This document shows, piece after piece, positions 53,229-62,387 of a DNA stretch of 64,000 bases. Each line of letters begins with the position of its first letter. The first letter of the stretch is position 1. The notes below the pieces were generated by a model. That model was not told the DNA's origin and did not search any database. It worked only from the letters and a program-made list of their open reading frames with translations. The translations under genes were made by a program, and so were the position numbers. Source of the stretch: Pseudomonadota bacterium (GTDB taxonomy: Bacteria > Pseudomonadota > Gammaproteobacteria > Burkholderiales > Burkholderiaceae_C); contig JAKOYD010000106.1 of assembly GCA_029780695.1 (NCBI GenBank), positions 1 to 64,000 on the forward strand. Reading direction: 5' to 3'.

Positions 53229-53534
53229 TCAGCCCGCATCGCTCAACCACTGGGCCACCCGTGCCTGCGCCGTGGACAGATCTTCGGCACTGCCGAAACT
53301 CACACCCAACACCTTCTGCCGCCCCGAAGCGCCATGCAGCAGCTCGACCTGCTTCTTGGGCACACCGAACGCCGCCGCCGCCCAGTCGATCAGGGCCGCA
53401 TTCGCCTTGCCATCGACCGGCGGCGCGCCCAGCCGCACGCGCAACGCGCCGCCGTGTGAACCCGCGGCCTCGGTGCGCTTGGCGCCGGGGGTGGCGTGAA
53501 TGGCCAGCTTGAGCACGTGCGCAGCCACGGCCAT
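53229..53534 (-). CDS. DUF167 family protein (YggU-like)
   Basis: A 101-residue small alpha/beta protein with the family motif RLGAPPVDGKANAALIDWAA and the SGRQKVLGV segment. Function is unknown. The ATG at 53534 overlaps the doc-like stop by one base (TGATG), so it is likely translated with the toxin-antitoxin pair, or the pair was inserted in front of it. The frame stays open upstream; that part is noise. Confidence 0.9.
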   Translation of the reverse strand: MAVAAHVLKLAIHATPGAKRTEAAGSHGGALRVRLGAPPVDGKANAALIDWAAAAFGVPKKQVELLHGASGRQKVLGVSFGSAEDLSTAQARVAQWLSDAG

Positions 53535-53935
53535 CAACGCGGCTGCAAGTGGCGGAGCAGCCAAGCGGCGAAGGCGGCTTCGTCGATGTCGCTGGCGGCA
53601 AGGGCCAGGGTGGTCAGCACGCAATCCACATGCGGCGCCTGGATGCGATGTCCGTTGAGCCGCAAGAACAACTGAGCCGCGACGAAGCCGGTGCGCTTGT
53701 TGCCGTCAATGAACGGGTGGTTGCGTACCAGACCAAACGCGTACGCGGCAGCCAAGTCAGCAATGTCAGGCTCGCCGTAGTTGGCCAGTTGCCGCGGGCG
53801 CGCCAGCGCGGAATCAAACAAACCCTCGTCGCGCAAGCCGCTGGCGCCGCCGTGCTCGGCCAACTGCTCCTCGTGCACAGCCAGCACCACCTCGCGCGGC
53901 AGCCAGCGCCACGCCTGGTTGGCGGCGCTCGTCAT
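53534..53935 (-). CDS. Doc/Fic-family toxin
   Basis: A 133-residue Doc-type protein carrying the Fic core HPFIDGNKRTG at residues 73-83, with the catalytic His and the Asn/Lys/Arg of the flap intact. Doc of phage P1 phosphorylates EF-Tu and halts translation. Here its partner is not Phd-like but an AbrB/MazE-type protein encoded just upstream with an ATGA overlap. The mixed pairing of Doc with an AbrB antitoxin is known from other bacteria. Confidence 0.93.
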   Translation of the reverse strand: MTSAANQAWRWLPREVVLAVHEEQLAEHGGASGLRDEGLFDSALARPRQLANYGEPDIADLAAAYAFGLVRNHPFIDGNKRTGFVAAQLFLRLNGHRIQAPHVDCVLTTLALAASDIDEAAFAAWLLRHLQPR

Positions 53936-54165
53936 TTGGCCAACTCGCGCAACACGTCGCGGTATTCCTTCATGATCTCGCGCGCGACCTCCATCTGCTC
54001 GGCGAACTCCTGGTCGTAGGCGCGCAGCGCCACGCCATCGGGCAAATCGGTGACGAACAGCGAATCGCCCTTGCTCACCTTCAGCCGTGCCAACACCTCC
54101 TTGGGCAGGATGACGCCGACCGAATTGCCGATCTGGGTGACTTTGAGGGCGACGGATGTGGACAT
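53932..54165 (-). CDS. AbrB/MazE-like antitoxin
   Basis: A 77-residue protein with an N-terminal SpoVT/AbrB swapped-hairpin domain (VALKVTQIGNSVGVILPKEVLARLKV, motif around residues 4-29) and a charged C-terminal helix (EQMEVAREIMKEYRDVLRELAK) that should bind the toxin. It comes first and overlaps the toxin by ATGA, the usual antitoxin-toxin order. A perfect palindrome 24 bases upstream fits autoregulation. Confidence 0.92.
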   Translation of the reverse strand: MSTSVALKVTQIGNSVGVILPKEVLARLKVSKGDSLFVTDLPDGVALRAYDQEFAEQMEVAREIMKEYRDVLRELAK

Positions 54166-54188
54166 GGCGGCTCGCAAGGGCTGATGGT

Positions 54189-54438: not shown

Positions 54439-56505
54439 TTACTCGAACTCCACGATGGCCTGATCCACCGCCAGGCTGTCGCCCTTTTGCGCCCTCACTT
54501 CCTTCACCACGCCATCGGCGCTGGCGAACAGCACGTTCTCCATCTTCATGGCCTCGATCACGGCCACGCGCTCGCCGGCCTTGACCTCCTGCCCCGGCTG
54601 TACGGCCACCTGCACCAGCAGGCCCGGCATGGGCGAGAGCACGAACTTGCTCATGTCGGGCGGCGCCTTGTAGGGCATCAGCTTGTGCAGCTCGGCGGTG
54701 CGCGGATGCATGACGATGGCGTCCAGCTGCGTGCCGTTGTGGATCACGCGCGTGGCCAGCGGGTTCTTGGCCAGCCCGCGCGCCATTTGCACCGTGAACG
54801 GCTTGCCATTGACGGTGCCGGTCACGCGCGCATCGCCCACGTAATGGTCGATGATCATCTGGTAGACCTTGGCGCCTTCCGGCGCCTGCACGGTGACGGC
54901 GCAGGGCTGGCCCAAGGCGACTTCGCCCAGATGCACGTCGACATAGCGGTTGTCGCCCTCCTTGCCCAGCATGCAGACGGTGAACTCACGCCCCGGCAGA
55001 CGCTTGTAGCCTTCCCAGAACTGGCCCTGCAGCCCTTGCGCGCGGTTGCGATACCACATGTGCAGGCGCGCGGCCAACGCGACCAGGAAATACGGGTCGT
55101 CGTGTGGCACGTCGACGGCCGAAAAACCGTGCGCGTAGTGCTCGGCGATGAAGCCGGTGTTGAAATCACCGCTCACGAATTTGGGGTGCGCCAGCAGCGC
55201 GGCCTGGAACGGAATGTTGCTCTGCACGCCCTTGATGACGAAGGCATTCAGCGCCTCGCGCATGCGCGCAATGGCGTCATTGCGGTCGCTGCCGTGCACG
55301 ATGAGCTTGGCGATCATCGAGTCGTAGTACATGGGAATTTCGCCGCCATCCACCACGCCCGTGTCCACGCGCACGCCCACCTCGGTGGTCGCCTGGCCCT
55401 GAAACAGGTTCTGCGCCGGCGGCTCAAAGCGCACCAGGCGGCCAGTGGACGGCAGGAAGTTGCGGAACGGGTCTTCGGCGTTGATGCGGCACTCAATGGC
55501 CCAGCCGACTTTTTTCACGTCGGCCTGCGTGAAGGCCAGCTTTTCGCCCGCCGCCACGCGAATCATCTGCTCGACCAGATCAAGCCCCGTGATCAGTTCC
55601 GTCACCGGGTGCTCCACCTGCAGGCGCGTGTTCATCTCCAGAAAGTAGAAGTCCTGGTTCTTGCCAACCACGAATTCCACCGTGCCCGCGCTCTGGTACT
55701 TGACCGCCTTGGCCAGCGCCACCGCCTGCTCGCCCATGGCCTTGCGCGTGGCGTCGCTGATGAAGGGCGACGGTGCTTCCTCGATCACCTTCTGATGCCG
55801 GCGCTGAATCGAGCACTCCCGCTCGTTCAGGTAGACCACGTTGCCGTGGCTGTCGCCCAGCACCTGAATCTCGATGTGGCGCGGCTGCTCGACGAACTTC
55901 TCGATGAACACGCGGTCGTCGCCAAAGCTGTTGCGCGCCTCGTTCTGGCAGGCCGCAAAACCGTCGAACGCTTCTTGATCGTTGAAGGCCACACGCAAGC
56001 CCTTGCCGCCGCCACCGGCCGAGGCCTTGATCATCACCGGGTAGCCGATGCCCTTGGCGATTTCCACCGCTTTTTCGGGCGTCTCAATCGCGTCGTTGTA
56101 GCCTGGGATGGTGCTGACCTTGGCCTCATTCGCCAGCTTCTTGGATGCGATCTTGTCGCCCATCGCCGCGATGCTGTGCGCCTTGGGGCCGATGAAGGCG
56201 ATGCCGTTGTCTTCGCACGCTTTGGCAAAGGCTTCGTTCTCGCTCAGGAAACCGTAGCCGGGATGGATCGCCTGCGCGCCGGTCTGCTTGGCAGCTTCGA
56301 TGATCTTGTCGGCCAGCAGGTAGGACTCACGCGACGGCGGCGGGCCCAGGCGCACGGCCTCGTCGGCCATTTGCACAAAGCGCGCGTATTTGTCCGCGTC
56401 GGAATACACCGCCACGGTGGCGATGCCCATTTTCTTGGCCGTCGCAATCACGCGGCAAGCGATTTCGCCACGGTTGGCAATCAGAATCTTCGTAAACATG
56501 TTCAT
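54439..56505 (-). CDS. pccA: propionyl/acetyl-CoA carboxylase, biotin-containing alpha subunit
   Basis: Biotin carboxylase plus biotin carrier of acyl-CoA carboxylase, 688 residues: BC domain with ILIANRGEIACRVIATAKKMG at the N-terminus, ATP-grasp GGGGKGLRVAF and ECSIQRRHQKVIEEAPSP, a BT linker, and BCCP end with biotinyl Lys654 in VIEAMKMENVL. The ATG at 56505 has GGAG six bases upstream and fixes the start. Lying next to pccB, meaB and the mutase, it most likely carboxylates propionyl-CoA. Confidence 0.96.
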   Translation of the reverse strand: MNMFTKILIANRGEIACRVIATAKKMGIATVAVYSDADKYARFVQMADEAVRLGPPPSRESYLLADKIIEAAKQTGAQAIHPGYGFLSENEAFAKACEDNGIAFIGPKAHSIAAMGDKIASKKLANEAKVSTIPGYNDAIETPEKAVEIAKGIGYPVMIKASAGGGGKGLRVAFNDQEAFDGFAACQNEARNSFGDDRVFIEKFVEQPRHIEIQVLGDSHGNVVYLNERECSIQRRHQKVIEEAPSPFISDATRKAMGEQAVALAKAVKYQSAGTVEFVVGKNQDFYFLEMNTRLQVEHPVTELITGLDLVEQMIRVAAGEKLAFTQADVKKVGWAIECRINAEDPFRNFLPSTGRLVRFEPPAQNLFQGQATTEVGVRVDTGVVDGGEIPMYYDSMIAKLIVHGSDRNDAIARMREALNAFVIKGVQSNIPFQAALLAHPKFVSGDFNTGFIAEHYAHGFSAVDVPHDDPYFLVALAARLHMWYRNRAQGLQGQFWEGYKRLPGREFTVCMLGKEGDNRYVDVHLGEVALGQPCAVTVQAPEGAKVYQMIIDHYVGDARVTGTVNGKPFTVQMARGLAKNPLATRVIHNGTQLDAIVMHPRTAELHKLMPYKAPPDMSKFVLSPMPGLLVQVAVQPGQEVKAGERVAVIEAMKMENVLFASADGVVKEVRAQKGDSLAVDQAIVEFE

Positions 56506-56520
56506 TGGCTCCAATTCGCC

Positions 56521-56594
56521 GTTCGCCCTGAGCTTGTCGAAGGGCCATCGCGGCGGGTCGGACAGGGCTTCGACAGGCTCAGCCCGAACGGTTG
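56521..56594. repeat. class-C inverted pair between pccB and pccA
   Basis: GTTCGCCCTGAGCTTGTCGA and, inverted, CTTCGACAGGCTCAGCCCGA with an 18-base loop region between. In the pccB-pccA transcript the pair would fold into a long hairpin, which may set the ratio of the two subunits. Confidence 0.85.
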
Positions 56595-56595
56595 G

Positions 56596-58128
<1,533 letters not shown>

Positions 58129-58177
58129 GGGGTTCCTTCGCTTTGGATTCGCTCGTTCTATGAATTGAATGGGGCTC

Positions 58178-58234
58178 TGACGCTTGCCAGATCAAGATGT
58201 TTTGCTATCTTTTATGAAGTATTGGATAGCTGCG
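58178..58234. repeat. degenerate class-A repeat
   Basis: CTTGCCAGATCAAG core, then GCTATCTTTTATGAAGTATT and GGATAGCTGCG, between pccB and the MeaB gene; its right end forms the last MeaB codons. Confidence 0.5.
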
Positions 58235-59807
58235 CCGCCAGCAGCGTGCGCGCCGCCGTCGATGGCGCCACGCGCCCGGCGGACACGGCCTCCAGCATCG
58301 CCGGCAACTCCGCCCTGACGCCCGGATGTGCGCGAAAGGCGCTTTTCAGGCCCGCGTCGATGCGCTCCCACATCCAAGCCAGGTTCTGCTGCTGGCGCCG
58401 TGCGGCCAGGCGGCCATTGGCGGTTTGCAGGCTGCGGAACTGCGTGACGGCTTGCCAGAAATCGTCCAGCCCCTCTCCCTTCAAGCCGCTGATCTGGATC
58501 ACGCGCGGGTGCCACAACGCCTCGTCGTGGTGGGCATGTTCAGGATTGCCATGCAGGCCGAACAGGCGCAACGCCGACTGGATTTGCGCCCGCGCGCGCG
58601 TAGCGGCAGCCGGGTCGATATCGGACTTGTTGATGACCACCAAGTCGGCCAGCTCCATCACGCCCTTCTTGATGGCCTGCAAATCGTCGCCCGCGTTGGG
58701 CAGTTGCAGCAGCACGAACATGTCGGTCATGCCGCTGACCGCCGTTTCGGACTGGCCCACGCCCACGGTCTCGACCAGCACCACGTCGTAGCCCGCGGCT
58801 TCGCACACCAGCATGGCTTCGCGCGTTTTTTCGGCCACGCCGCCCAGCGTGCCGCTGCTGGGGCTGGGGCGGATATAGGCGGCTTCGAGCGCCGAGAGCC
58901 GGTCCATGCGCGTCTTGTCGCCCAGTATGGATCCGCCCGAGACGGTGGACGACGGGTCGATGGCCAGCACCGCGACGCGATGGCCGTGCTCGATCAGGTG
59001 TACGCCGAGCGATTCGATGAAAGTGCTTTTACCCACGCCGGGCACGCCGCTGATGCCGATGCGCAGGGACTTGCCGGTGTGCGGCAGCAACGCGGTCAGC
59101 AGTTCGTCACCCTGCGCACGGTGGTCGGCGCGGGTGGATTCGAGCAGCGTGATGGCCTTGGCGATGGCGCGGCGCTGGGCGGGGCCGGTTGCGCCGGTAA
59201 TGCCATCGACCAACCCACCCCCCTCCGTTCGCCCTGAGCCTGCCGAAGGGTAGCCCGCTTCGAGCACAGCCCGCTCCTGACCCGTTCGCCCTGAAGCTGT
59301 CGAAGGGTAGATCCCGTCGAGCCCAGCCCGCTCCTGACCCATTCGCCGTGAGTCCGTCGAAGGGTAACCCGCTTCGAGCACAGCCCGTTCCTCACCCGCT
59401 CGCCGTGAGTCTGTCGAAGGGTAACCCGCTTCGAGCACAGCCCGTTCCTGACCCGTTCGCCCTGAGCCTGTCGAAGGGCCCGTCCCCAAGACCGGCGCTG
59501 AATCCCGCGATGACCCGTGCCCATCGCCGCCCCTGGAACGCGCCAGCGCCTTGACACGCTCCCAATCCCCCGCAATCAACGCCCCCTTCTTGGCACGCGA
59601 CCACCCCTTGACCTGCTGTTCGAATTCGAGCGCGGCGGCGCGCGATTCGAACTCGCCGTGCCACACCATTTCGACAGGCCGGCGCGTAGCCGTGTATCCG
59701 CCAGCACCCACATGGTGCTGCTCCAGACGCGCGGCCAGTTCATCGGTGTGCCCGCAGTAATACGAGCCGTCGGCGCAGCGCAGCAGGTAGACGTGGAACG
59801 GCTTCAT
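58212..59807 (-). CDS. meaB: MeaB GTPase with in-frame N-terminal GIY-YIG domain and repeat linker
   Basis: MeaB is the G-protein chaperone that loads and protects adenosylcobalamin in methylmalonyl-CoA mutase. The MeaB part (333 residues) has GPAQRRAIAKAITLLESTR, Walker A GISGVPGVGKSTF, DPSSTVSGGSILGDKTRM, VETVGVGQSE and NKSD. One open frame of 531 codons, however, starts far upstream at 59807 with a GIY-YIG nuclease domain (residues 1-95), continues through four-and-a-half translated 57-bp repeats (residues about 108-195) and runs into MeaB without a stop. MeaB probably has its own start: TTG at 59213 with GGAGG eight bases before it, giving the normal length. Both readings may occur. Confidence 0.9.
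   Translation of the reverse strand: MKPFHVYLLRCADGSYYCGHTDELAARLEQHHVGAGGYTATRRPVEMVWHGEFESRAAALEFEQQVKGWSRAKKGALIAGDWERVKALARSRGGDGHGSSRDSAPVLGTGPSTGSGRTGQERAVLEAGYPSTDSRRAGEERAVLEAGYPSTDSRRMGQERAGLDGIYPSTASGRTGQERAVLEAGYPSAGSGRTEGGGLVDGITGATGPAQRRAIAKAITLLESTRADHRAQGDELLTALLPHTGKSLRIGISGVPGVGKSTFIESLGVHLIEHGHRVAVLAIDPSSTVSGGSILGDKTRMDRLSALEAAYIRPSPSSGTLGGVAEKTREAMLVCEAAGYDVVLVETVGVGQSETAVSGMTDMFVLLQLPNAGDDLQAIKKGVMELADLVVINKSDIDPAAATRARAQIQSALRLFGLHGNPEHAHHDEALWHPRVIQISGLKGEGLDDFWQAVTQFRSLQTANGRLAARRQQQNLAWMWERIDAGLKSAFRAHPGVRAELPAMLEAVSAGRVAPSTAARTLLAAQLSNTS
59211..59228 (-). promoter_or_regulatory. internal ribosome-binding site and TTG start for stand-alone MeaB
   Basis: On the minus strand the sequence reads ACGGAGGGGGGTGGGTTG: a GGAGG Shine-Dalgarno with eight bases to TTG at 59213. 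Starting here gives a 333-residue protein, the normal size of MeaB/ArgK. The site lies at the edge of the 57-bp array. Confidence 0.7.
59227..59482. repeat. 57-bp tandem array of class-C repeats
   Basis: The element CGCCCTGAGCCTGTCGAAGG (with variants) recurs with starts at 59227, 59284, 59341, 59398 and 59455, exactly 57 bases apart. The spacers between elements are also conserved (CCCGCTTCGAGCACAGCCCG). 57 is a multiple of three, and translated on the minus strand the array gives copies of ERAVLEAGYPSTDSRR. Confidence 0.95.
59520..59807 (-). other. GIY-YIG endonuclease-like domain flanked by inverted class-C arrays
   Basis: Residues 1-95 of the long frame: FHVYLLRCADGSYYCGHTDE has the VYL and YCG counterparts of GIY and YIG, followed by the arginine in AARLEQH and the catalytic Glu region ALEFEQQVKGWSRAKKGALI. 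This is a complete UPF0213/YhbQ-size nuclease domain. Class-C repeats read TTCGCCCTGAGC... on one side and TTCGACAGGCTCAGG... on the other, so the domain is bracketed by inverted arrays. No ribosome-binding site is clear before the ATG at 59807. Confidence 0.85.
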
Positions 59808-59827
59808 GCGGTCGGGGTGCTGGCCTG

Positions 59828-60105
59828 CCCTTCGACAGGCTCAGGGCGAACGGGTGTGCTGGACATGGCGGCGGCTCGGGTCACTTCATGCCCTTCGACA
59901 AGCCCAGGGCGAACGGGTGTGCTGGGCATGGCAGCGGCTCGGAGCACTTCATGCCCTTCGACAGGCCCAGGGCGAACGGGTGTGCTGGACATGGCGGCGG
60001 CTCGGGTCACTTCCTGCCCTTCGACAAGCCCAGGGCGAACGGGTGTGCTGGACATGGCGGCGGCTCGGGTCACTTCATGCCCTTCGACAGGCCCAGGGCG
60101 AACGG
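59828..60105. repeat. 63-bp tandem array of inverted class-C repeats
   Basis: CCCTTCGACAGGCTCAGGGC and variants start at 59828, 59891, 59954, 60017 and 60080, exactly 63 bases apart, with conserved spacers (GTGTGCTGGACATGGCGGCG). The AGGC/AAGC variant alternates between successive units. Orientation is opposite to the 57-bp array. This fills the 414-bp spacer between the GIY-YIG start and the mutase stop (59808-60221), in which I see no gene. Confidence 0.95.
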
Positions 60106-60140
60106 CGTGAGGGGTACGGTGTGGGATGACACGGCGCGCA

Positions 60141-60170
60141 CGGCTTCGACAGGCTCAGCCCGAACGGTTG
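60141..60170. repeat. single class-C repeat
   Basis: CGGCTTCGACAGGCTCAGCC then CGAACGG, a lone copy between the 63-bp array and the mutase gene. Confidence 0.8.
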
Positions 60171-60221
60171 TTGAGTGCCATGCCATCCATACAAACGCTT
60201 GGGTCAGGCGAAATAACCACC

Positions 60222-62387
60222 TCAAGCCCGCGCCTTCCTGATCTGCTCCAGCACATCCTTGGCGCTGGCCGGAATCGGCGTGCCCGGCCCGTAGATGCCC
60301 TTGACGCCCGCCTCGTACAAAAAGTCGTAGTCCTGCCGCGGAATCACGCCGCCGACGAAGACGATGATGTCGTCGGCGCCCTGCTCTTTCAGCGCTTTCA
60401 GAATGGCCGGCACCAGCGTCTTGTGACCAGCCGCCAGCGTGCTGACGCCGACCGCGTGCACGTCGTTCTCGACGGCCTGGCGCGCGCATTCCTCGGGCGT
60501 CTGGAACAGGCTACCAATGTCCACGTCGAACCCTAAGTCGGCAAACGCCGTGGCCACCACCTTGGCGCCGCGGTCGTGACCGTCCTGGCCCAGCTTGGCG
60601 ATCATCACGCGCGGGCGGCGGCCTTCTTCGTCGGCGAAGTCGGCGATTTCTTTCTTGAGCTTGTCCCAGCCTTCGGCCGAGTCGTAGGCGGCTGCGTACA
60701 CACCGGTCACCTTTTGCGTGTCGGCGCGGTGGCGCCCAAAGACTTTTTCCATCGCGTCGCTGATTTCGCCCACCGTGGCGCGGGCGCGAATCGCCTTCAC
60801 GGCGGCGTCGAGCAGGTTGCCTTGCCCGCTATCCGCTATCTTTGTAATAGCTTCAAGCGCTTGCTGCACCTGCGCTGCGTCCCGTTTTTTCTTGATATCG
60901 TTCAGGCGCGCGATCTGCGATTCGCGCACCTTGACGTTGTCCACCTCCAGAATTTCGATGGCGTCTTCCTTCGCCAGCTTGTATTTGTTGACGCCGACGA
61001 TCACGTCCTTGCCAGAGTCGATGCGCGCCTGCTTTTCGGCGGCAGCGGCTTCGATCTTGAGCTTGGCCCAGCCCGAATCCACCGCCTTGGTCATGCCGCC
61101 CATGGCATCGACCTCTTCGATGATGGCCCACGCGGCATCGGCCATGTCCTGCGTCAGCTTCTCCATCATGTAGCTGCCGGCCCAGGGGTCGACCACGTTG
61201 GTGATGTGCGTCTCTTCCTGGATGATGAGCTGGGTGTTGCGGGCGATGCGGGCTGAGAATTCGGTGGGCAGCGCAATGGCTTCGTCGAAGCTGTTGGTGT
61301 GCAGGCTCTGCGTGCCGCCGAACACCGCCGCCATCGCCTCGATGGTGGTGCGCACCACGTTGTTGTAGGGGTCTTGCTCGGTCAACGACCAGCCCGAAGT
61401 CTGCGAATGCGTGCGCAGCATCAGGCTCTTGGGGTTCTTTGGGTCGAATTCCTTCATGATCCGGCACCACAAGAGGCGCGCGGCGCGCATCTTGGCGATC
61501 TCCAGATAGAAGTTCATGCCCACGGCCCAGAAGAAGGACAGGCGCCCGGCGAACTCGTCCACGTCCATGCCCTTGGCCAGCGCCGTCTTCACGTATTCCT
61601 TGCCGTCGGCCAGCGTGAAGGCCATCTCCAGCGCCTGGTTGGCACCGGCTTCCTGCATGTGGTAGCCGCTGATGCTGATCGAGTTGAACTTCGGCATGTT
61701 CTTGGCCGTGTACTCGATGATGTCGCCAATGATTCGCATGCTCGGCTCAGGCGGGAAGATGTAGGTGTTGCGGACCATGAACTCCTTGAGGATGTCGTTC
61801 TGGATGGTTCCGCTGAGCTTATCTTGCGGCACGCCCTGCTCTTCCGCCGCGATCACATAGCCTGCCAGCACCGGCAGCACGGCGCCGTTCATGGTCATGG
61901 ACACGCTCACCTTGTCCAGCGGGATCTGGTCGAACAAGATCTTCATATCCTCGACCGAATCGATCGCCACGCCGGCCTTGCCCACGTCGCCCGTCACGCG
62001 CGGGTGGTCGCTGTCGTAGCCCCGGTGCGTAGCCAGGTCGAAGGCCACACTCACGCCCTGCCCGCCGGCGGCCAGCGCCTTGCGGTAGAAGGCGTTGGAT
62101 TCCTCGGCCGTGGAGAAGCCCGCGTACTGCCGGATCGTCCAGGGCCGCACGGCGTACATGGTGGCCTGCGGGCCGCGCAGGTAGGGCTCGAAGCCCGGCA
62201 GCGTGTCGCTGTACTGCAGGCCCTTCAGGTCGGCTGCGGTGTAGAGCGGCTTCACCGTGATGCCGTCCGGCGTGATCCAGTTCAGCGCATCCACGTTGCC
62301 GCCGGGTGCCGACTTGGTGGCGGCCTTGGTCCAGGCCTCCAGGGTGGCGGTTGCAAACACAGGGCTGGATTCGGGCTTGGCGGACAT
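60222..62387 (-). CDS. scpA: methylmalonyl-CoA mutase
   Basis: Adenosylcobalamin enzyme converting (R)-methylmalonyl-CoA to succinyl-CoA. The 721-residue single-chain protein has the TIM-barrel N-terminal half ([39 protein letters not shown]) and a C-terminal B12 domain with [10 protein letters not shown], the cobalt-ligating His604 and GGVIP. Length matches the large catalytic chain of homodimeric (ScpA-type) mutases. The linker at about 60828-60868 ([15 protein letters not shown]) is encoded by DNA resembling a class-A repeat (CAAGCGCTTGAAGCTATTAC). Divergent from the GntR regulator gene. Confidence 0.97.

Follow-up and report, generated by a model that had tools for sequence, protein, structure and literature searches.

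Small GIY-YIG nuclease genes of two clades mostly lie between inverted copies of clade-specific REP-like repeats and are candidate partners in their spread

Introduction

Do some families of short dispersed repeats in bacterial chromosomes have a small GIY-YIG nuclease as their resident enzyme? The question is raised by a locus at which a GIY-YIG domain lies between two arrays of the same repeat. GIY-YIG enzymes are classic homing endonucleases, i.e., I-TevI and its kin, and we know of no case in which GIY-YIG chemistry drives bacterial DNA transposition. REPIN-RAYT systems, reportedly treated by Nunvar in 2010, offer a comparison. REPINs are inverted doublets that form clusters beside RAYTs, according to the excerpts used here of Bertels and Rainey (2011; PMC3116915). 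A second group, the CGTC REPs, which include Neisseria dRS3, is described as apparently having no dedicated transposase in the part of Di Nocera (2013; PMC3733652) on which we draw. Among the matches listed for open-licence PMC, which leaves aside preprints and most subscription journals, none linked a GIY-YIG enzyme to REPs, and six terms counted in the main text of PMC12306157 all gave 0.

Results

A GIY-YIG gene between facing repeat arrays

The window, i.e., the whole stretch of 64,000 nucleotides that was analysed, carries inward-facing arrays of one REP-like repeat on both sides of a GIY-YIG domain (59526-59807, minus strand). Its relevant features are:

56519-56591, no strand: REPIN-like facing doublet of the window repeat, with the polarity seen around the gene
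58212-59807, minus strand: 531-aa ORF with GIY-YIG domain, repeat-coded linker and MeaB GTPase (PF03308, E 7e-110)
59225-59478, minus strand: array of five repeats with 57-bp spacing on the 3' side of the gene, forming the linker inside the ORF
59453-59478, minus strand: proximal downstream repeat, inverted relative to 59828-59853 (29-bp arms, 100% complementary)
59526-59807, minus strand: clade-A GIY-YIG nuclease (94 aa as cut; PF01541, E 3e-14), start codon at 59807
59828-59853, plus strand: upstream repeat closest to the gene, with 20 bp between its TCGAAGG end and the start codon; its CCGTTCG end is the distal one on the gene strand
59828-60105, plus strand: array of five repeats with 63-bp spacing on the 5' side of the gene
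60142-60167, plus strand: variant repeat copy GGCTTCGACAGGCTCAGCCCGAACGG
60222-62387, minus strand: methylmalonyl-CoA mutase gene mcm, the upstream neighbour (PF01642, E 1e-240)

A preliminary description of this DNA had placed the domain between oppositely oriented arrays of 57-bp and 63-bp period, and we confirmed this arrangement, with five copies in each. It had also put the repeat at 12 or more copies in the window; we counted 13 matches to the core CCCTGAGCCTGTCGAAGG at up to three mismatches, where shuffled sequences gave an expectation of 0.07. Absent from it were the neighbouring mcm and the fusion frame: the GIY-YIG domain is the N-terminus of the 531-aa ORF, whose reading frame crosses the 57-bp array, at 19 codons per unit, into MeaB. 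GIY-YIG and MeaB likewise form one frame in genomes G148, G090, G103 and G038, and are two separate genes in G100.

The window's own MAG (84% completeness, 6.5% contamination) had 33 matches to a 26-base repeat pattern with up to three mismatches and 59 to a 24-base degenerate core with up to one, the reversed control being zero in both cases. Rfam returned no family at gathering score for 56000-61000, and a plasmid DNA search with 59480-60140 gave zero matches. The sole Pfam match of the GIY-YIG domain was PF01541, with no match to a Y1 HUH transposase. The clade-A profile A1, of which the window sequence is itself one row, matched the window protein with an E of 1.1e-44. Elsewhere in the window, at 53534-54177 (minus strand), a Fic/DOC ORF immediately follows a MazE-antitoxin-type ORF, likely a toxin-antitoxin pair.

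A structure model of the 94-aa protein had a pLDDT of 91.5. Among solved structures, Foldseek placed two proteins of UPF0213 closest (E 2e-5 and 2e-4), followed by the branched-DNA nuclease Slx1 (E 0.004, probability 1.00). The GIY-YIG motif, with active-site Arg and Glu, is present, and Y7, Y17, G19, R27 and E63 were invariant in 39 sequences; we take the conserved Arg and Glu to have catalytic roles.

Bracketing of GIY-YIG genes across Pseudomonadota

The window's MAG has three PF01541 matches: the window gene, a 665-aa open frame whose length would fit UvrC, and a gene of another subfamily (L002), which lies between inverted copies of another repeat, GTCATTCCCGCGAAGGCGGGAATCC-like in sequence. 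Because the latter was a second bracketed case in the same genome, we tested bracketing in general. PF01541 was searched in 397 Pseudomonadota genomes and the best 150 places were listed; 80 of the first 90, from 70 genomes, were fetched with 6-kb flanks, ten having been skipped without a fixed rule. The bracketing score was the best local match obtained when the 300 bp before a gene were compared with the reverse-complemented 300 bp after it.

A score of at least 14 was reached by 37 of the 80 genes, versus 9 of 782 shifted positions (1.6-4.8 kb) and 16 of 800 permuted pairs of flanks; raising the threshold to 18 left 30/80, 0/782 and 7/800, respectively. With real ORFs as the control, 36 of 79 GIY-YIG genes were bracketed versus 28 of 924 neighbouring ORFs, the figure for short ORFs being 6/334. 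Direct repeats around GIY-YIG genes were enriched too (24/80 versus 24/782 shifted positions, score at least 14). In a later check, two of the ten places previously skipped and three of the next ten were bracketed. We regard the association between GIY-YIG genes and inverted repeats as settled.

Two bracketed clades and an internal control

A tree of 113 proteins (the initial 80, 20 extra and 13 from the window's family), based on 92 columns and with many forks open, contained three groups with SH-aLRT values of 91, 98 and 97. Bracketed genes accounted for 22 of 26 in clade A, to which the window gene belongs, and 40 of 44 in clade B, but for just one of 43 in a third clade that we take to be UPF0213-like; that single case was an AT-rich match with a score of 14. 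Sharing its domain with clades A and B and resembling them in gene size, the third clade provides a strong internal control. For the initial 80 loci alone, the counts for A, B and the third clade were 9/10, 27/29 and 1/41. A further 20 loci, assigned to clades by best BLAST hit, gave 1/1, 4/6 and 0/13; one of the two clade-B misses was cut by a contig end and the other had mixed nearest hits. Among the 20 extra genes, which came mostly from genomes with several GIY-YIG genes and were not a random draw, 17 were bracketed, as were nine of the 13 window-family genes. At the unbracketed clade-A loci L035 and L038, the repeat was found on the downstream side only. NCBIfam gave no family for three GIY-YIG proteins, one per clade, and PHROGs, searched with two proteins, returned one weak match, for clade B only (0.008, homing endonuclease).

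Clade A was then sought in named genomes by a scan with profile A1. The best 80 of 571 confirmed stretches came from Burkholderiales, other betaproteobacteria and many Sphingomonadales, and also included two Chloroflexota MAGs and one Planctomycetota MAG. The preliminary description had proposed that repeats should flank this gene more often than random genes, and this was borne out in those 80: 61 were bracketed versus 30 of 779 neighbouring ORFs at a score of at least 14 (52 versus 6 at 18 or more), while 19 were not. Without three loci that duplicate earlier genes (L244, L247 and L290), the count was 60/77. Two of 72,556 plasmid records had a match at 1e-20, and both were bracketed; RAYTs are reported absent from plasmids in the excerpt of PMC8049555 cited here.

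Repeat type, polarity and structure

Clade A pairs with repeats of the form CCGTTCG..CTGAGC.TGTCGAAGG (A repeats), and clade B mostly with CGTC-tagged REPs. A first regular-expression typing, which had a loose B rule, assigned 15 of the bracketed clade-A loci to type A, five to mixed, one to other and one to type B (22 in all); of the 40 bracketed clade-B loci it assigned 33 to type B, five to other and two to mixed. Under a stricter rule applied afterwards, a TGAG..TCGA-like core was found at 21/22 clade-A and 2/40 clade-B loci, and a GTC with a hairpin of at least 6 bp at 1/22 and 28/40; the 12 clade-B brackets that fail the latter rule include other hairpins. Seven genomes carried both clades (G000, G013, G172, G272, G329, G390 and G466), and in these 15 of 16 genes were bracketed, each by its own clade's type as judged partly by eye, so that the repeat type follows the enzyme and not the species. 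The clade-A brackets at L142 and L144 have the form TCATCCTGAGGAG..CTCGAAGGATGA and look intermediate between the two repeat types.

Among the 61 bracketed clade-A loci of the best 80 of 571 stretches, 51 had the CCGTTCG end distal and the TCGAAGG end proximal to the gene, five the reverse, and five were unclassed; the median gap between repeat and gene was 16 bp on the start side and 18 bp when measured from the far end of the matched stretch. In clade B, the GTC tag was distal at 23 of 38 bracketed loci, proximal at four and unclassed at 11. In the fetched loci, neighbouring A repeats up to 40 bp apart faced inward in 64 of 82 pairs (outward 6, same way 12), i.e., gene-less doublets share the polarity of the gene's brackets. 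Wider A pairs, up to 120 bp, were mixed (68 inward, 41 outward). Clade-B doublets in the fetched loci were few and of mixed polarity, with tags inward in ten, outward in five and pointing the same way in ten.

The two bases on each side of CTTCGACARGCTCAG can pair in 169 of 182 A copies (distinct by 130-bp context, with many related), compared with a mean of 56 and a maximum of 73 after shuffling, and the flanking stem uses nine pair types. These values indicate a covarying stem around a fixed loop. A possible TTCG–CGAA pseudoknot was considered by eye. The predicted single-strand stability of one A copy was not unusual (z -0.7), while that of one CGTC copy was (z -4.2). The GTAG tag was found at the TCGAAG end in 0 of 213 exact-core A copies, and within 6 bases of the other end in one; GGGTAG does appear in the 57-bp array of the window, in two copies that have diverged.

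Co-occurrence of gene and repeat

The preliminary description had also predicted that gene and repeat occur together, and this too was borne out. In 150 genomes of the window's family, all ten with a strong clade-A match (E below 1e-39) carried the repeat, at 45, 60, 69, 59, 20, 46, 246, 55, 7 and 2 copies. Sixteen genomes reached 20 copies, and eight of these had the gene, compared with 2 of the 134 below that number (Fisher p 1e-7, relatedness ignored). In genus g109, identified as Variovorax because G527 matches the contig of L247, the gene (E below 1e-20) occurred in 4 of 46 genomes, with 129, 230, 88 and 9 copies, the genome with nine being 73% complete. Among the 42 gene-less Variovorax genomes, G549 had 109 copies and G548 had 43, and the remaining 40 had 0-7; copy number differed between genomes with and without the gene by a rank test that ignores relatedness (p 6e-4). 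Copies of the CGTC-1 pattern occurred in 7 of the 11 genomes whose A1 match was weaker and clade-B-like, only some of which were placed by the tree, versus 13 of 139 others (p 6e-5, relatedness again ignored); G004, without a clade-B-like match, had 184 CGTC-1 copies.

Eight repeat-rich family genomes had no strong clade-A match. One of these (G064) carries a decayed clade-A remnant together with its upstream repeat in the slot between mcm and meaB (tblastn 41% over 51 aa, E 1.7e-9). The slot lacks an insert in four (G101, G106, G117 and G142), with 71-95 bp to the MeaB motif, and is occupied by other genes in two (G005 and G027); in G098 the gene before meaB is a different one, and the stretch yielded no mcm. 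A search for facing A repeats 150-2500 bp apart, which might enclose another partner gene, found none in nine stretches of G117 and G101. According to the part of PMC8049555 used here, REPINs persist in E. coli genomes without a RAYT, in lower number. Since REPINs can thus outlast their RAYT, gene-less repeat-rich genomes are compatible with a similar model here, yet they weaken it.

The mcm-meaB slot

The gene is flanked by both mcm and meaB in G000, G013, G100, G038 and three Variovorax genomes; meaB is in frame with GIY-YIG also in G148, G090 and G103, and the mcm side was observed in G089. Because the gene of the window's family is mostly in this slot, those cases are not independent, and the gene seems to stay or disappear there more often than it relocates. 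G131, which belongs to the window's genus, lacks both the gene and the repeat. DNA was viewed for 30 of the 45 Variovorax meaB loci: in 13 the gap measures 79-89 bp; in 14 it measures 544-564 bp and contains a gene that reads as acetyltransferase-like; and three combine that same kind of gene with a repeat-GIY-repeat unit. The unit has thus been gained or lost within the slot. Neither a target-site duplication nor a base-exact empty site could be detected at the Variovorax slot, where the junction flanks are too diverged. The gap is a variable slot at L322, L324, L323 and the Variovorax loci; in other genera it holds, by reading, toxin-antitoxin-like pairs or an acetyltransferase-like gene.

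Y1 transposases

Y1_Tnp matches were found in 113 of the 150 window-family genomes. The A repeat lay beside the gene at none of 20 Y1 loci from 18 family genomes, the nearest copies being 1.5 kb away at one locus, and this upholds the earlier proposal of a partnership not tied to RAYTs. Nine of the 20 were bracketed (score at least 14) by their own GGGGTCAGA-like terminal repeat, i.e., the bracketing test does find transposase ends. Y1/RAYT-type genes were accordingly disfavoured as partners of the repeat. The Y1 genes L196, L199, L200, L203, L207 and L210 are bracketed by AATTAATTGGGGTCAGATTCCAATTA-like ends, and G013, from the window's genus, has 20 Y1_Tnp matches, several with identical scores, which point to a recently active IS200-like element.

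Discussion

Each of clades A and B goes with a single repeat type, and the repeats are more numerous where the gene is present. The gene mostly has a repeat on either side, usually in the inward polarity and at a distance of a few to some tens of bp from the gene's ends. Because both clades mostly sit between facing copies of a clade-specific repeat, their nucleases are good candidates for the role of the missing partner in repeat spread, and the GIY-YIG–repeat partnership read by the preliminary description is supported. Our preferred reading, with a probability of roughly 0.6, is that the window may hold a representative of REP systems in which a dedicated small GIY-YIG nuclease spreads repeat doublets. 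The mobilisation itself we infer from sequence patterns. In such a system, the enzyme would recognise the repeat hairpin (fixed loop and tails, covarying stem) as a single strand or in extruded form, would cut beside it, and would act in trans to place copies of facing doublets at new sites, a role ascribed to RAYTs in the case of REPINs. The autonomous form would then be the repeat-gene-repeat unit, and the non-autonomous one the gene-less doublet.

The likeness to REPIN-RAYT systems is extensive: short palindromic repeats occur in inverted doublets, a small chromosomal enzyme gene adjoins copies of its repeat, the enzyme is matched to the repeat class, and repeats persist in gene-less genomes. 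However, the enzyme here is a GIY-YIG protein rather than a Y1/HUH tyrosine transposase, and the GTAG tag is missing from the repeats. Several clade-B repeats closely match the published form of CGTC REPs (CGTC, AT-opening stem, CCA tail), but clade-B genes sit between such repeats, whereas the published account, in the part cited, has no dedicated enzyme; the window's clade-A bracket type, in contrast, fails the GTC and hairpin rule at all but one of 22 loci. UPF0213/YhbQ and Slx1 provide the nearest structures to the clade-A enzyme, yet the UPF0213-like clade is not bracketed.

The main rival, and a live one, is that the enzyme is a homing guest that would attack REP doublets and insert a copy of its own gene there through break repair, the repeats spreading by other means. 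The catalytic fold and gene-sized mobile context are those of homing endonucleases, the classic role of GIY-YIG enzymes; the gene occupies the spacer position of a doublet, with the doublet's polarity; and gene-less repeats are common. Unlike known homing endonuclease genes, the gene here lies in no intron or intein that we could see and is bracketed by a dispersed repeat, and a separate DNA-binding domain would not fit into about 94 aa. Genomes with many copies are mainly those that bear the gene, in Variovorax as in the window's family, and the family gene is mostly in one slot rather than in many doublets. A repeats do not flank Y1 genes (0/20), and a dedicated spreading enzyme for CGTC REPs was not found in the cited part of PMC3733652. 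We consider this explanation unlikely, although it comes closest to the preferred reading.

Less probable still is that the nuclease processes the hairpins of its own repeat, in repair, gene conversion or copy-number control, without transposition. Its fold is near that of the structure-specific nuclease Slx1, and the 57-bp and 63-bp tandem arrays beside the window gene suggest local copy changes, but maintenance by itself leaves the scattering of repeats to many sites unexplained. That RAYT-type (Y1) transposases move the repeats, with the GIY-YIG gene as a bystander, is very improbable: Y1_Tnp is widespread in the family, but the 20 fetched loci lack the A repeat beside the gene and nine of them have ends of their own, and bracketing tracks the GIY-YIG clades. 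Equally improbable is chance hitch-hiking of small GIY-YIG genes into intergenic regions where repeats gather as terminators or RNA stabilisers; REPs lie mostly downstream of coding regions (PMC3733652, in the part cited), but neighbouring ORFs were rarely bracketed in either control set (28/924 and 30/779), the third clade hardly ever was (1/43 and 0/13), and neither polarity preference nor clade-specific repeat type would be expected.

A broader statement stands at about even odds: GIY-YIG nucleases may be dedicated mobilisers of two widespread REP super-families, the CGTC REPs and the TTCGACARGCTCAG family. These would then form a class of miniature mobile DNA that evolved in parallel to REPIN-RAYT systems and extends from Proteobacteria to Chloroflexota. 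The finding of a clade-matched nuclease between CGTC REPs turns the question of their transposase into a direct biochemical test. If the reading is true, two enzyme clades without an NCBIfam family would acquire a function, and the lifestyle of a repeat with a resident enzyme would have arisen at least twice, with unrelated enzymes.
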